Part shown: piece by piece, positions 1,407 through 5,392 of the stretch | How positions within the stretch are numbered: the stretch's first letter is position 1 | Layout: the number at the start of each line of letters is the position of its first letter | IMG/VR virus record: IMGVR_UViG_3300037488_000797 | Location: 1-35,565 of that record | Strand: one strand, 5' to 3' | DNA length: 35,565 nt | DNA from: a virus | Notes under the pieces: model-generated | Database searches by the model: none | What the model was told of the DNA's origin: nothing | Seen by the model: the letters and a program-made list of their open reading frames with translations, nothing else | Program-made: the position numbers and the translations under genes

Positions 1407-1622
1407 TCATGCTGCATTGTCCTTCAGTTCGATGAGCTTGTCCAAATAGTGCCTGGCTTTTTTGAGGTCGTTAATTCCGCCCTTGTCTTGCCAACGTGAA
1501 ACGTATTTCACGATGTTTCCTTCAAAGTAGCCGAGCTGGTTGGCCGCAATAAAGTCCCATGGCTGGATGGATTTTTCCTTGTAGTGATCTCCGCCGATCT
1601 GGGTGTCGTTTGCTGTTGTCAT
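1407..1622 (-). CDS. DUF3310 (SaV-like) protein
   Basis: 71 residues. The motif GGDHYKEKSIQPWDFI near the N terminus and the following GNIVKYVSRWQDKGG, DLKKARHYLDKLIEL are the hallmarks of the DUF3310 family, common in phage early regions and distantly similar to nucleotide-pyrophosphohydrolase-like proteins. The biochemical role is not established. The start at 1622 is chosen because it overlaps the previous gene's stop as ATGA and is preceded by GGAGG; an in-frame ATG seven codons upstream would overlap the neighbour more deeply. Confidence 0.88.
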   Translation of the reverse strand: MTTANDTQIGGDHYKEKSIQPWDFIAANQLGYFEGNIVKYVSRWQDKGGINDLKKARHYLDKLIELKDNAA

Positions 1623-2182
1623 AAGTCCTCCAAGTCTTCGCAAAGGTTGTTAAAAATGTCAAGTCTGTGCTGCTTAAGTAGCATGGCATTTTTTGTCATG
1701 AGCAGCTTTCCATTTTTAGATGAAAGCCAATAGTTTGCTTTATGAGGCACTCGCTGACCAAGCGCGACGACTTTGAGGTTGTTGCAGTTTGGTGCGTATT
1801 CTTTGCGAAACAACCGCCATTCGACGCCTGGTTCATTGTCATCGTCAAGCCTGGTGCTAGTAATCCATCCATCGCCGTCTGGCGGGTTTCCGGCAAACAT
1901 CTTGGTGGATGATTTTTTCGCACGTGTCTTTTGTGCGTTAAGTTTTTGAACACATGGGACGCACCAGCGTTTAACACCGCCATCTTCAATGAGGCCATTT
2001 TCCATGAGTTGATTGATGATGCCACCAGTTCTTGATGGGGCTGCGTGATTGTTGATGGTGCGCTCTGCGTAACCCTGAGCCGCCATCCATTGAACAAAGT
2101 CATCCCGCTTGACGATGAAATTGATGCTGTCTGGTAAAGCACCAAGATGAAGGCAGAGCTTGTAAAAGGATTTCTGATTCAT
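1619..2182 (-). CDS. Winged-helix-like protein, long paralogue (187 aa)
   Basis: I do not recognise a named family. Residues 30-68 (QGYAERTINNHAAPS, then GGIINQLMENGLIE) align with residues 24-55 of the upstream 80-residue protein, in a pattern typical of a helix-turn-helix or winged helix. A CVPC pair and a basic stretch (KTRAKKSSTK) follow, then a C-terminal domain of about 90 residues. The start at 2182 overlaps the preceding stop as ATGA. The gene's base composition is clearly A+T-rich (22 G+C in the 60 bases from 1681). Its place downstream of the primase-helicase and the 2422-2615 regulatory gap suggests a replication or regulatory role, which is inference. Confidence 0.75.
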   Translation of the reverse strand: MNQKSFYKLCLHLGALPDSINFIVKRDDFVQWMAAQGYAERTINNHAAPSRTGGIINQLMENGLIEDGGVKRWCVPCVQKLNAQKTRAKKSSTKMFAGNPPDGDGWITSTRLDDDNEPGVEWRLFRKEYAPNCNNLKVVALGQRVPHKANYWLSSKNGKLLMTKNAMLLKQHRLDIFNNLCEDLEDL

Positions 2183-2421: not shown

Positions 2422-2474
2422 AGTTGCTCCAAATTTAACCGCATTACCGAACGACCCTCCTACCTATCACTCAT

Positions 2475-2498
2475 CCCCCAGTTTCACTTAACTGGGGG
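2475..2498. promoter_or_regulatory. Perfect hairpin in the regulatory gap
   Basis: CCCCCAGTT (2475-2483) and AACTGGGGG (2490-2498) form a perfect 9-bp stem with a six-base loop. Outer arms CTCAT and ATGAG extend it after a one-base bulge. Neither side has a run of T typical of an intrinsic terminator, so an operator, an mRNA leader structure or an origin element is as likely as attenuation. It lies between the primase-helicase stop and the 80-residue gene. Confidence 0.6.
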
Positions 2499-2509
2499 TA
2501 TGAGAGTAT

Positions 2510-2525
2510 GGGTAGGGTAGGGTAG
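2510..2525 (+). repeat. Three tandem GGGTA repeats
   Basis: GGGTA occurs three times head to tail at 2510, 2515 and 2520 and is followed by another G. With the GGGGG run at 2494-2498 the plus strand has four G tracts and could in principle form a G-quadruplex. An inverted TACCC lies at 2552-2556. Confidence 0.6.
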
Positions 2526-2563
2526 TTTCCGGAATTTATGCCACCTTCAACTACCCTGCGCTT

Positions 2564-2592
2564 AGTATATAACATATTGCTTTGGGTTGTAA
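2564..2592 (-). promoter_or_regulatory. Candidate sigma70-type promoter for the leftward 80-aa gene
   Basis: On the minus strand a TATACT box (2564-2569, five of six consensus) lies exactly 17 bp from TTACAA (2587-2592, a weak -35). It points toward the 80-residue gene, leaving a leader of about 140 bases containing the hairpin and GGGTA repeats. The overlap with the phased GGGTT sites suggests a regulator could bind there. Confidence 0.35.
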
Positions 2593-2610
2593 TGGGTTTT
2601 TTAGGGTTGT
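2581..2610 (+). repeat. Three GGGTT motifs at exact 10-bp spacing
   Basis: GGGTT occurs at 2584, 2594 and 2604, each inside a 10-base unit with A/T flanks. One helical turn between copies puts them on the same DNA face, as in protein-binding iterons or cooperative operators. They end six bases before the stop codon of the primase-helicase gene. Confidence 0.5.
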
Positions 2611-2615
2611 TTTTG

Positions 2616-4409
2616 TTATCTTGTTTCGGCTTGTGTTGACCACCAAGCATTTTCAAGAACACGCGCCTCTGAACTGAATTTGGATTCCTTTTTCTTGGCT
2701 GTTGGGGCATCTGCGCAGACAACCACCGCGCTGGTGACTTGCTGGTCATCTTCATCGCGCCAGCCTGGGATCGCAACTGTGTGAAGTTGTACGAAAACGG
2801 GTTCTGCCATCTCTGCGTCTTTGCTCTTGCGCTGCACGATCTGCATGGGCTGGTCATCTTTGCCTGGAATGATGCTGATCTCAATGTCCAGAGCACCGCG
2901 CCATGCTGATGATCCCCTGGCCCGGTGCTGGGCTTCCTCTGACACGCCGGTGTGGTGCACCAGGATGACAGAGCAGTCGAACTCTTGCATGAGTGCGTTG
3001 CATGCGTCCAGCATGGTCTTGGCATCCTGTGCGCTGTTTTCGTCGCCTGAGAGGAATCGGTGCAGGGTATCGACCACAATCACGCTGGGCCGGTCTTTGA
3101 GCATTCTGACCTGCTCGACGACTTTGAGATAGCCAGTCGGGGTGTTGAGGTCGCAGCCGTCTTTGGAGAGCCACATCTTGAGCTTGCCTGCTTTGTGGTG
3201 GTGCTTCCATGCAGCGACCCTGCCGCGCAGACCGTGGTGACCTTCACCAGCCAGATACACCACGTTGCCTTGGCGCACTTTGTGGCCTGCCCAGTCCTCG
3301 ATGCCGCTGGCCATGCGCAGGCACCAGTCGAGCACCACGAATGTCTTGCCGCCACCGCTGGGGCCGTGAACCATCACCAAGGCTTGGGATTGAATCCAGC
3401 GCTTGACGAGCCAGCTGATGGGGGAGGGCTGAGAGCAGAAGTCGTCCGCTGGGATGAGCCAGTCATCCTTGATGGGCATGAGGAGGCTGGCCAAATCATT
3501 GCCTGCTTGTGCATAGTCGTTGGCATCACCGAGTGTCGGAGGCATAACCATGCGTGCGCCGAATTTGGCGCTGGCCTGTTCTGCGTATCGTTGGCCGACG
3601 CCTGATTTGTCATTGTCTGCCACGATCACGATGTCCTGGGTTGCGCCGTATATTTCCCGGAGCGTACCAGTTACCGGGACCAGGTTGCTGGCGCTGTAGG
3701 CCACTACGACGGGCCTGTCGGTGGTCTCATGGATGGTGGCTGCGGTTGCAAAGCCCTCGGCGACGTATAGGGTGCCGGGTTCGTCTGTGGTGCCGAGCAT
3801 CCAAAACTTGCCGCCTGTCTGACCGCCTGGGTGATAGAGCTTTCCGCCTTCGTGGTCGATGTATTGGAGGGTGGCCAGTGTTCCGTCTTGATCGTAGAGT
3901 GGCAGCACCAGTCGACCGTCTCCTGTGATTCGTGCGCCATGCACATCGATTCCCTTCTTGGCCAGGTATGGGTGCTCGGAGCTGGCTGGGTTAGCCGTTG
4001 TCCAGATTTTCTCGACTGTGTCGCTGGCCACTTGATGCTGGCGCTCCAGTGCTGCATCTCGCAGGGCTTTGGCTTCTGTCAGGCGTTTGAGGTGGGTCAT
4101 TTCCTCGATCTGAGTGAGCTTGCGGCCAACGTCTGCACGCCAGGTCACTTCCATGCCCATGCGCCAGCAACCGAACCGGCCGGCAGGGATTCCGTCTCCA
4201 AAAACCAGATACCAGCCCGGCTTGTCGATGCCTGGTGTGCCTTTGGTTCCTGATTTGAAGCGGTGGATCTTGCCGTCCATCTCGATATGGTCTGGTGGTT
4301 CCAGACCGGCTGCACGCATTGCGTCAATCAGTTGCACTTCTGGGGGTGCGACCAGTTTCTCTGGTGGTGGTGCCCAAGGTCCGCCGAGGACTTTGGAGAG
4401 GTCAGCCAT
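2616..4409 (-). CDS. TOPRIM primase / RecA-fold helicase
   Basis: 597 residues. An N-terminal primase-like region leads into a TOPRIM domain at about 212-300, with the conserved glutamate in VAEGFATA (E218) and the D-x-D in ADNDKSG (265-267). The C-terminal half is a RepA/AAA_25 hexameric-helicase ATPase: Walker A GPSGGGKT at 349-356, Walker B VIVVDTLHRF with D447, and VILVHHTG at 481-488. The protein should prime and unwind DNA at the phage origin. There is no phage polymerase, so the host enzyme is presumably recruited. I chose the ATG at 4409, which overlaps the HTH gene stop by 8 bp; a longer in-frame extension to 4517 would lie almost entirely inside the HTH gene and reads like shadow sequence. 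Confidence 0.9.
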   Translation of the reverse strand: MADLSKVLGGPWAPPPEKLVAPPEVQLIDAMRAAGLEPPDHIEMDGKIHRFKSGTKGTPGIDKPGWYLVFGDGIPAGRFGCWRMGMEVTWRADVGRKLTQIEEMTHLKRLTEAKALRDAALERQHQVASDTVEKIWTTANPASSEHPYLAKKGIDVHGARITGDGRLVLPLYDQDGTLATLQYIDHEGGKLYHPGGQTGGKFWMLGTTDEPGTLYVAEGFATAATIHETTDRPVVVAYSASNLVPVTGTLREIYGATQDIVIVADNDKSGVGQRYAEQASAKFGARMVMPPTLGDANDYAQAGNDLASLLMPIKDDWLIPADDFCSQPSPISWLVKRWIQSQALVMVHGPSGGGKTFVVLDWCLRMASGIEDWAGHKVRQGNVVYLAGEGHHGLRGRVAAWKHHHKAGKLKMWLSKDGCDLNTPTGYLKVVEQVRMLKDRPSVIVVDTLHRFLSGDENSAQDAKTMLDACNALMQEFDCSVILVHHTGVSEEAQHRARGSSAWRGALDIEISIIPGKDDQPMQIVQRKSKDAEMAEPVFVQLHTVAIPGWRDEDDQQVTSAVVVCADAPTAKKKESKFSSEARVLENAWWSTQAETR

Positions 4410-4587
4410 GCGACACCTTGCGGCTTTCGAGGTAGTCCGAGAGAGCCTGCAAGACTTTGTGCGTGGGGTTTGCGTCTGGGTTGTCGCGCACCTTGCGGAT
4501 GGTGTTGTAGTGCACACCGGTGGCCTCTGCCACCTTCATGGGCATTCGGTCTGAGAGGGCATCTCGTATCTGTTCGAGGGTCATCAT
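4402..4587 (-). CDS. Small Cro-like HTH protein
   Basis: 61 residues. The segment MKVAEATGVHYNTIRKVRD (17-35) has the helix-turn-helix pattern of XRE/Cro-type repressors (A-x3-G at the turn, then NTIRK as recognition helix). It is the first gene of the leftward block, directly at the divergent gap, so it could repress its own promoter or the facing Sak4 promoter. The start has two adjacent ATGs (4587 and 4584); the first is eight bases after GGAG. With no integrase or second repressor, a lysogeny switch is not implied. Confidence 0.75.
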   Translation of the reverse strand: MMTLEQIRDALSDRMPMKVAEATGVHYNTIRKVRDNPDANPTHKVLQALSDYLESRKVSHG

Positions 4588-4714: not shown

Positions 4715-5392
4715 ATGGCAATCAATTTGAAGACGACCGGCAGTTTGTCTGCCAATGGAGTGAAGTTGCTTGTTTATGGTGCTGCTGGTGCTGGCAAGAC
4801 TACGCTTGTCAAAACCCTGCCCAATGTGATTGTGCTGAGTGCCGAGGGTGGCTTGTTGAGCATTCAAGATGCTGACCTGCCTTACATTGAGATCGCCAGC
4901 ATGGACGATTTGCGCGAGGCATTCACATGGTGCCGCGACAGCAAGGAGGCCGCTGGGTTTCAATCGGTCGCGCTGGACTCGATCAGCGAGGTGGCCGAGG
5001 TGGTGCTGTCGCATGAGATGAAGAAGTCCAAGGATGGCCGCGCTGCTTATGGCGAGATGAACAGCACCATGCAGGAGCTGATTCGCGCCTTCCGCGATCT
5101 GCCAGGCAAGCATGTCTTCATGTCGGCCAAGCTGGAGAAGTCCACCGACGAGATGGGCAAGATGCTCTACAACCCAGGCATGCCAGGCAAGAGCCTGACA
5201 CAAGGCCTGCCTTACTTCTTTGATGAAGTGCTGGCGCTGCGGGTTGAGCGCGATGCTGAGGGTGTGACGCAACGCGCCTTGATGTGCGACTCGGATGGCC
5301 TCTGGCTGGCCAAGGATCGCTCTGGCAAGTTGTCTGGCTGGGAAGCCCCAGACCTGGGCGCGATCATTGCCAAGATTGGAGCACGATCATGA
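4715..5392 (+). CDS. Sak4-like RecA-fold ATPase (AAA_24), recombinase
   Basis: 225 residues. Walker A is GAAGAGKTT at 22-30 and a Walker-B-like strand SVALDSISE is near residue 90. Length and layout fit the phage Sak4 / AAA_24 family, RecA-core ATPases used in single-strand annealing recombination. It is the first gene of the rightward block and is followed by DUF669, a Cas4-like nuclease and helicases, which is the usual setting of Sak4. It starts 8 bases after AAGGAG and its stop overlaps the next start as ATGA. Confidence 0.85.
   Translation: MAINLKTTGSLSANGVKLLVYGAAGAGKTTLVKTLPNVIVLSAEGGLLSIQDADLPYIEIASMDDLREAFTWCRDSKEAAGFQSVALDSISEVAEVVLSHEMKKSKDGRAAYGEMNSTMQELIRAFRDLPGKHVFMSAKLEKSTDEMGKMLYNPGMPGKSLTQGLPYFFDEVLALRVERDAEGVTQRALMCDSDGLWLAKDRSGKLSGWEAPDLGAIIAKIGARS

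Follow-up and report, generated by a model that had tools for sequence, protein, structure and literature searches.

A candidate replication origin and its presumed winged-helix reader in an exchangeable cassette family of tailed phages

The segment at positions 2422-2615 of a 35,565-base virus record (the window, that is, the whole stretch of DNA analysed, to which all coordinates refer) is quite probably an initiator-binding array, most likely a replication origin, that belongs to a family of exchangeable cassettes made of an origin and a winged-helix (WH) reader. Going by its gene content the record is a tailed phage; it looks like a freshwater bacterial virus, and the segment looks like its replication start site. 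To our knowledge, no origin has been assigned for the majority of metagenomic tailed phages. In this family, which has cultured members, a probable origin could be located, and a word and a protein reader assigned to each phage, from sequence alone. No description of these origins was found in the literature searched, most subscription papers being outside its scope.

Results

The replication block of the window

The module is flanked by a primase-helicase gene and by genes for a free winged-helix protein of 80 residues (WH80) and a 187-residue protein (Table 1). Pfam analysis of the primase-helicase core detected Toprim_3 (51.7, curated cut-off 27.2) and AAA_25 (127.8, cut-off 27) in one protein, the helicase being AAA_25 and not the D5/DUF927 type of SaPI/D5-type Rep, and the only sequence relative of the core in the PDB was the RSF1010 RepA helicase (1g8y, E 9.5e-6). 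The core reading frame is extendable upstream to 4517 via GTG and terminates in WWSTQAETR and a stop codon, without the usual C-terminal winged helix. The region had been placed, in a reading made from the sequence only, between the primase-helicase and two winged-helix-like genes, and this held: WH80 is a homologue of the WH domain discussed below, and in the 187-aa protein a profile-profile comparison with the WH alignment picked out another, paralogous winged helix (probability 93, E 3e-7). A ParB_N + N6_N4 methyltransferase gene (3-1304) adjoins the replication block and is conserved past the cassette edge. On the other side, a Cro-like HTH gene (4402-4587; PHROG transcription regulator) overlaps the start of the primase gene and is divergent from an AAA_24 gene at 4715, which is Sak4-like in named relatives. 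A tRNA search found none.

Table 1. Features of the candidate origin module and the neighbouring genes (window coordinates)
Feature	Position	Strand	Basis or remark
Primase-helicase core, Toprim_3 + AAA_25, 597 aa	2616-4409	-	Pfam; likely start ATG, MADLSKVLGG
Whole module, candidate origin and promoter/leader	2422-2615	-	Between core stop and WH80 start codon
GGGTT words, three copies, upstream word cluster	2584-2608	+	GGGTAGT variants
Sigma70-like promoter reading towards WH80	2564-2593	-	Conserved in the split clade
AGGGTAGTT word, in opposite orientation to the tandem words	2549-2557	-	
GGCATAAA box	2535-2542	-	Conserved
Tandem GGGTA, three copies, period 5	2510-2524	+	Other families have tandem words at this position
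Hairpin	2470-2504		9-bp perfect core; 14-bp stem with one bulged base
Inverted words ACCCT (2454-2458) and CTACC (2460-2464)	2454-2464	+	Distal to hairpin
TAATGCGG box	2439-2446	-	Distal edge of module
GGAG, ribosome-binding-like	2427-2430	-	5-6 nt before WH80 start codon; TTTGGAG conserved in the split clade
WH80, free winged-helix protein, 80 aa	2179-2421	-	Homology to fused C-terminal domains; AlphaFold2 (AF2)
WH187, 187-aa protein	1619-2182	-	Start codon overlaps WH80 stop (ATGA)
DUF3310 gene	1407-1643	-	Pfam DUF3310; far edge of exchanged block

Words, hairpin and promoter of the window module

The elements named by the sequence-only reading were confirmed on the sequence: three GGGTT copies at exact 10-bp steps (2584, 2594 and 2604, plus strand), three tandem GGGTA copies (2510-2514, 2515-2519 and 2520-2524), a perfect 9-bp stem (CCCCCAGTT at 2475-2483 and AACTGGGGG at 2490-2498), and a TATACT box (2569-2564, minus strand) 17 bp after TTACAA. 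The phased GGGTT words overlap the -35 region of this promoter, as had been said of the TATACT box, and ATTACA (2593-2588), 18 bp before TATACT on the minus strand, is an alternative -35 element. The AGGGTAGTT word, the GGCATAAA and TAATGCGG boxes and the inverted words distal to the hairpin had been overlooked. The module, promoter included, is conserved in all relatives with a free WH gene (the split clade; L001, L064, L082, L084, L085 and L156). Among these, L085 has GGGTAGT at the first GGGTT position, the L082 promoter reads TTTACA..TATAAT, and the hairpin carries compensatory changes in L085 and L082. The GGCATAAA box reads GGCAAAAA in L082, L085 and L156 and GGCAAAA in many other families, and TAATGCG of the TAATGCGG box is invariant across the split clade (compare GATGCG in some other families).

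Three identical 5-mers spaced by 10 bp occurred in 0 of 2000 dinucleotide shuffles and in 0.5% of the other 194-bp windows of the phage; the corresponding values were 0.05% and 0.3% for three tandem 5-mers, and 0.6% (500 shuffles) and 1.1% for a 9-bp hairpin. GGGTAG is about 100-fold denser in the module than elsewhere in the phage (4 versus 0.04 expected), and the fold energy of the module as single-stranded DNA has a z of -3.35 against shuffles. The total GGGTA count alone was not significant against shuffles (p = 0.085), so the case leans on the comparison with relatives; the words of the window are fewer and more degenerate than those of other families. DnaA box TTATCCACA was absent from the window. 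The GC-skew check for a replication peak was uninformative, with no consistent extremum at the module in the window, PB15, 1N2-2 or MW202867.

WH80 as a split-off domain of the primase-helicase

The comparison set comprised about 290 relatives. Among the 80 best IMG/VR relatives, the core reads on in about 75 into a winged helix of about 75 aa with the pattern PYISRSAL...EHGW...SAMMM, which is homologous to the separate 80-aa ORF of the window, and an HMM scan of all loci placed 280 of 295 WH matches inside the primase-helicase frame. A free WH was found only in the window clade (the window, L001/L081, L064, L082/L083, L084 and L085) and in the more distant L156, and the gene order of the split clade is core, stop codon, module, promoter and free WH gene. 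WH80 aligns over its full length with the fused C-terminal domains at 27-47% identity with invariant PY, I and GW; by this homology, WH80 is the split-off C-terminal domain of the primase-helicase. We also considered the 194 bp as a recent insertion or intron in a normal gene and rejected it: WH80 is about 40% identical to fused WHs whereas the cores are 90% identical, WH80 begins at a start codon of its own behind its own ribosome-binding site, and exchange of the block includes WH80.

AlphaFold2 predicted a winged-helix topology for WH80 (pLDDT 85.5). Foldseek gave no strong solved homologue: matches to solved structures were weak, though several were winged helices (best 1bja, E 0.17). A predicted viral Prim_Pol protein matched the WH80 model with a TM of 0.89. 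P4 alpha was absent among the top 50 PDB structure matches, and all PDB matches were weak; a PDB sequence search with the WH profile returned chance-level matches only. Pfam gave no family, RepA_N included, for WH80 or two fused WHs, PHROGs gave none for WH80, and no sequence match of WH80 to RSF1010 RepC was found.

L153 (1091-2154) is an intermediate between the fused and split forms, with a fused WH whose recognition sequence is similar, a window-type module downstream and then a 187-like winged-helix gene. L127 (MW202867.1) and L324 (12539-14431) combine the AAA_25 helicase, the WH and the module with a Prim-Pol/PriCT_1 primase in place of TOPRIM; the primase type is exchanged in this branch while helicase, reader and origin layout are kept.

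The module in relatives

Most relatives carry, directly beside the WH, a module of about 170 bp with the same architecture as 2422-2615 and another word: direct and inverted 5-6 bp words, a GGCAAAA box, period-5 tandem words, a hairpin (its loop often TTTA in relatives) and inverted words. At least ten words occur across the modules, among them GTAAC, GGAAC, CCCCT, GCCCC, GGGTC, GGACA, GTACA, GTTCA and GTACC, with GGGTAG in the window clade; the word families were chosen partly by eye, and 46 of 264 loci yielded none of the listed words. Named phages with the module are CGphi29 (GGGGACA), 1N2-2 (GGTACA), PB15 (GGTTCA) and MW202867 (GGGACA). The last three have 8-12 word copies per module versus 0.04-0.1 expected, with GGTTCA in PB15 reaching 12 versus 0.1 expected. 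A WH group with the pattern PYLTRSALYEW.../GSRRNL... has no word array after the gene (L268, L271, L274, L275, L277, L278, L281 and L285).

Motif enrichment was measured on 117 dereplicated fused loci against control regions. Of the modules, 31% had an exact DnaA box, against 0% of the controls; GGCAAAA was present in 34% versus 1-3% and on one strand only, and stems of at least 8 bp in 45% versus 1-5%; GATGCG was weakly enriched (22% versus 16% in the downstream control). An apparently sequence-specific domain in a replicative primase-helicase, an adjoining word array, a hairpin and DnaA boxes together lead to the origin reading; the cassette itself is real and conserved, and it probably functions as an origin. 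The iteron-like sites proposed beside a replication gene are an array of short specific repeats at the primase-helicase gene. Exact 10-bp phasing is not a general feature, as other families space their words differently; conservation in related phages was found for the module in all split relatives and not for spacing across other families. Nor is a G-quadruplex, which the GGGTA words could form, a shared function, because GTAAC, GTTCA and GTACA words cannot form one.

The features of the split clade could also be taken to mean that the module serves solely for transcriptional control, with WH80 and/or the 187-aa protein repressing the 2564-2593 promoter and the hairpin shaping the mRNA 5' leader; a sigma70-like promoter and ribosome-binding site are conserved there, phased words overlap the -35 region, and two winged helices are encoded downstream. 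We consider this unlikely, since in most families the module follows the primase-helicase stop codon and the replicative enzyme itself contains the reader, inspection by eye showed no comparable promoter in most fused-family modules, many modules are flanked by DnaA boxes, and an operator needs no inverted words and hairpin on both sides. Of the two proposals of the sequence-only reading, an origin or a tightly regulated leader, the origin is strongly supported by the same module lying beside the WH in most relatives and by the covariation of word and WH, and the leader stood in part: as the promoter is conserved in the split clade, a regulated leader of the WH80 operon may coexist with the origin.

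Maintained pairing in the stems raised the question of a function as RNA. There are 100 distinct hairpins in 207 loci, in which the arms change wholesale and complementarity is kept, and the module is probably transcribed with its operon, both as expected of a structured leader or 3' UTR in which the words are merely stem strands. An RNA stem, however, needs neither a repeated word in separate stems and tandem copies nor covariation with the WH, an Rfam search gave no match, no intrinsic terminator was found, and DnaA boxes are DNA sites, which makes this explanation very unlikely in our view.

Covariation of word and reader

The partial Mantel correlation of module and WH given the core was 0.595 over 139 loci; the two control regions, the CDS ahead of the WH (0.33) and the DNA lying 420-640 bp downstream (0.27), also kept some residual correlation with the WH. 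Among pairs with cores at least 97% identical, the word was common to 96% of those with WHs at least 85% identical (n = 223) and to 0 of 24 with WHs below 55% identity. The word changes 23 times on the core tree (57 loci) versus 8 times on the WH tree. On these comparisons, the word follows the WH and not the core.

Association with the word was strongest at WH columns K33, D36, N39 and G46 (WH80 numbering), with an excess information of 1.0-1.17 bits; the maximum among 394 core columns is 0.83 bits. In the AF2 model of WH80, K33, D36 and N39 fall where helix 27-34 ends and in the loop that follows. Residue 33 is Q, L or M in 28 of 28 unique GTAAC WHs and V, T or I in all eight GGAAC WHs; this group has 8 word changes and 8 residue changes on the core tree, hence few independent contrasts, and the residue-33/word contrasts on supported branches were concordant in 4 of 4 (p = 0.125). 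L071 and L073, with cores 97.7% identical, have a switched array (9 GGAAC versus 7 GTAAC), and their WH stretches differ at four sites: A/T before the domain, Q/V at 33 and two in the following loop. By alignment they are a natural near-minimal pair, in which three substitutions at or just after the recognition helix accompany the word switch. Such pairs make the protein-DNA recognition code directly testable.

Exchange of reader and module as a cassette

L012 and L015 are 100% identical over 900 bases of core, about 40% identical over WH and module, and 98-100% identical beyond. The same drop over WH and module was observed for L011/L019, with about 95% identity on either side, and for L013/L018, with flanks of about 96% and 95%. 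As metagenomic contigs make up most of the sequences, an individual swap, L012/L015 for example, could be a chimera of assembly; taken over the pairs, the identity profiles indicate that WH and module are swapped together as a cassette between phages with near-identical cores.

The split form shows a similar pattern. Core DNA of the window and L064 is 77-89% identical, while identity is mostly 97-100% from the 3' end of the core through the module, WH80 and most of WH187 and DUF3310, with one 200-base stretch at 84-88% and no identity past the block. By core, L064 is nearest to the fused L007, and L085 to the fused L073. By these alignments the split cassette also moves as a unit. Against fused relatives, the window block runs from the core C-terminus to the DUF3310 3' end, where about 36 bases (1390-1426) are 88-100% identical in relatives with diverged surroundings; this stretch is a possible recombination edge of the cassette.

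Cassette exchange means frequent recombination at the locus, and packaging sites also have repeats and hairpins, both of which would suit a packaging (pac/cos) or recombination site in place of an origin. The word, however, tracks a domain fused to the primase-helicase and not the terminase, and the terminase genes form a separate block in 1N2-2 and CGphi29; among the explanations considered here we find this one the most improbable.

Discussion

Proposed mode of action

For the origin favoured here, the covariation suggests that the WH binds the 5-6 bp word, GGGTAG in the window clade, via its helix-turn-helix and the loop after it. Direct and inverted words flanking a cruciform-prone hairpin would gather several WH copies. 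Since the primase-helicase of most relatives carries the WH as its C-terminal domain, binding would bring both enzyme activities to the hairpin, the presumed starting point of melting and priming. In the window clade, the separate 80-aa WH, expressed from a promoter overlapping the phased words, would need to bring in the core in trans and could also act as a repressor of the promoter it is made from; with a free reader and this overlap, autoregulation is likely in addition to the origin role. If this reading is true, the split clade is a natural case of an initiator domain acting in trans.

The helicase core is related to RSF1010 RepA, and a single-stranded hairpin with words resembles the ssi sites of RSF1010-type replicons. 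The module might on these grounds serve lagging-strand priming as an accessory single-strand initiation site, at which a primosome assembles, and not be the initial origin, but words also lie outside the hairpin, near DnaA boxes and an A-rich stretch, as in a duplex origin, and we judge this quite unlikely.

Comparison with known replication systems

The best reading, by analogy, is that the candidate origin works like the origins of P4 alpha or SaPI Rep. P4 alpha and SaPI Rep each have a site-specific origin-binding domain in the replicative protein (PMC4234260, PMC7581432), and the C-terminal domain of the initiator helicase of SaPI Rep and SCCmec Cch2 recognises a short-repeat array directly downstream of the gene (PMC7581432, citing Ubeda et al. 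2007). The family described here likewise has a C-terminal domain as presumed reader of short repeats downstream of the gene. It differs from P4 alpha in its AAA_25/RepA-like helicase, the candidate origin directly beside the gene, the tandem 5-6 bp words around a hairpin, the many exchangeable specificities and, in the window, the winged helix as a separate protein. It differs from SaPI Rep and SCCmec Cch2 in its helicase and primase families, with a TOPRIM or Prim-Pol primase within the same protein, in the conserved hairpin and GGCAAAA box, and in residing in tailed phages, not islands.

The RepA_N initiator of PLE, a satellite in Vibrio cholerae, has a DNA-binding domain that varies in step with the origin and was exchanged on several occasions, and replication by cognate RepA_N-origin pairs only was established experimentally (PMC8263062). 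Covariation and swapping of word and reader are similar here, as deduced from sequence only, whereas RepA_N is no primase-helicase and has iterons of about 30 bp and few alleles against the at least ten words found here. The pRN1 replication protein unites primase, helicase and C-terminal winged helix, and its origin is a stem-loop of about 100 bp just 3' of the gene, of which the structure is kept while the sequence changes (PMC4234260). Most relatives of the window share this fusion and the stem-loop 3' of the gene; pRN1, however, is an archaeal plasmid with an archaeo-eukaryotic primase and an SF3 helicase, and no iterons are recognised in it. The family also resembles the RepA/RepB/RepC system of RSF1010 (IncQ) in its RepA-like helicase and, in the split clade, in a presumed iteron reader that is separate, as RepC is, but it has the primase fused to the helicase and 5-6 bp words. 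A scan of genome contigs for hosts or prophages found no relative, and a plasmid search gave partial primase or helicase matches only, below 60% identity.

Replication specificity as a possible exchangeable trait

Cassette exchange suggests diversifying selection on replication specificity, as proposed for PLE satellites. As a tentative possibility, somewhat less likely than not, origin and WH reader may form replication-compatibility cassettes that are swapped as a block and obey a readable residue-base code (constant GG plus variable bases; residues 33, 36 and 39), yielding numerous mutually incompatible specificities, the diversity of which competitors, satellites or origin-targeting nucleases would maintain; the window clade would then be the trans-acting version, with specificity carried as a separate mobile gene under its own promoter. 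In MW202867.1 a GenBank hypothetical protein is annotated over the word array (L324, 14428-14592), so that the origin module is hidden there as coding sequence.
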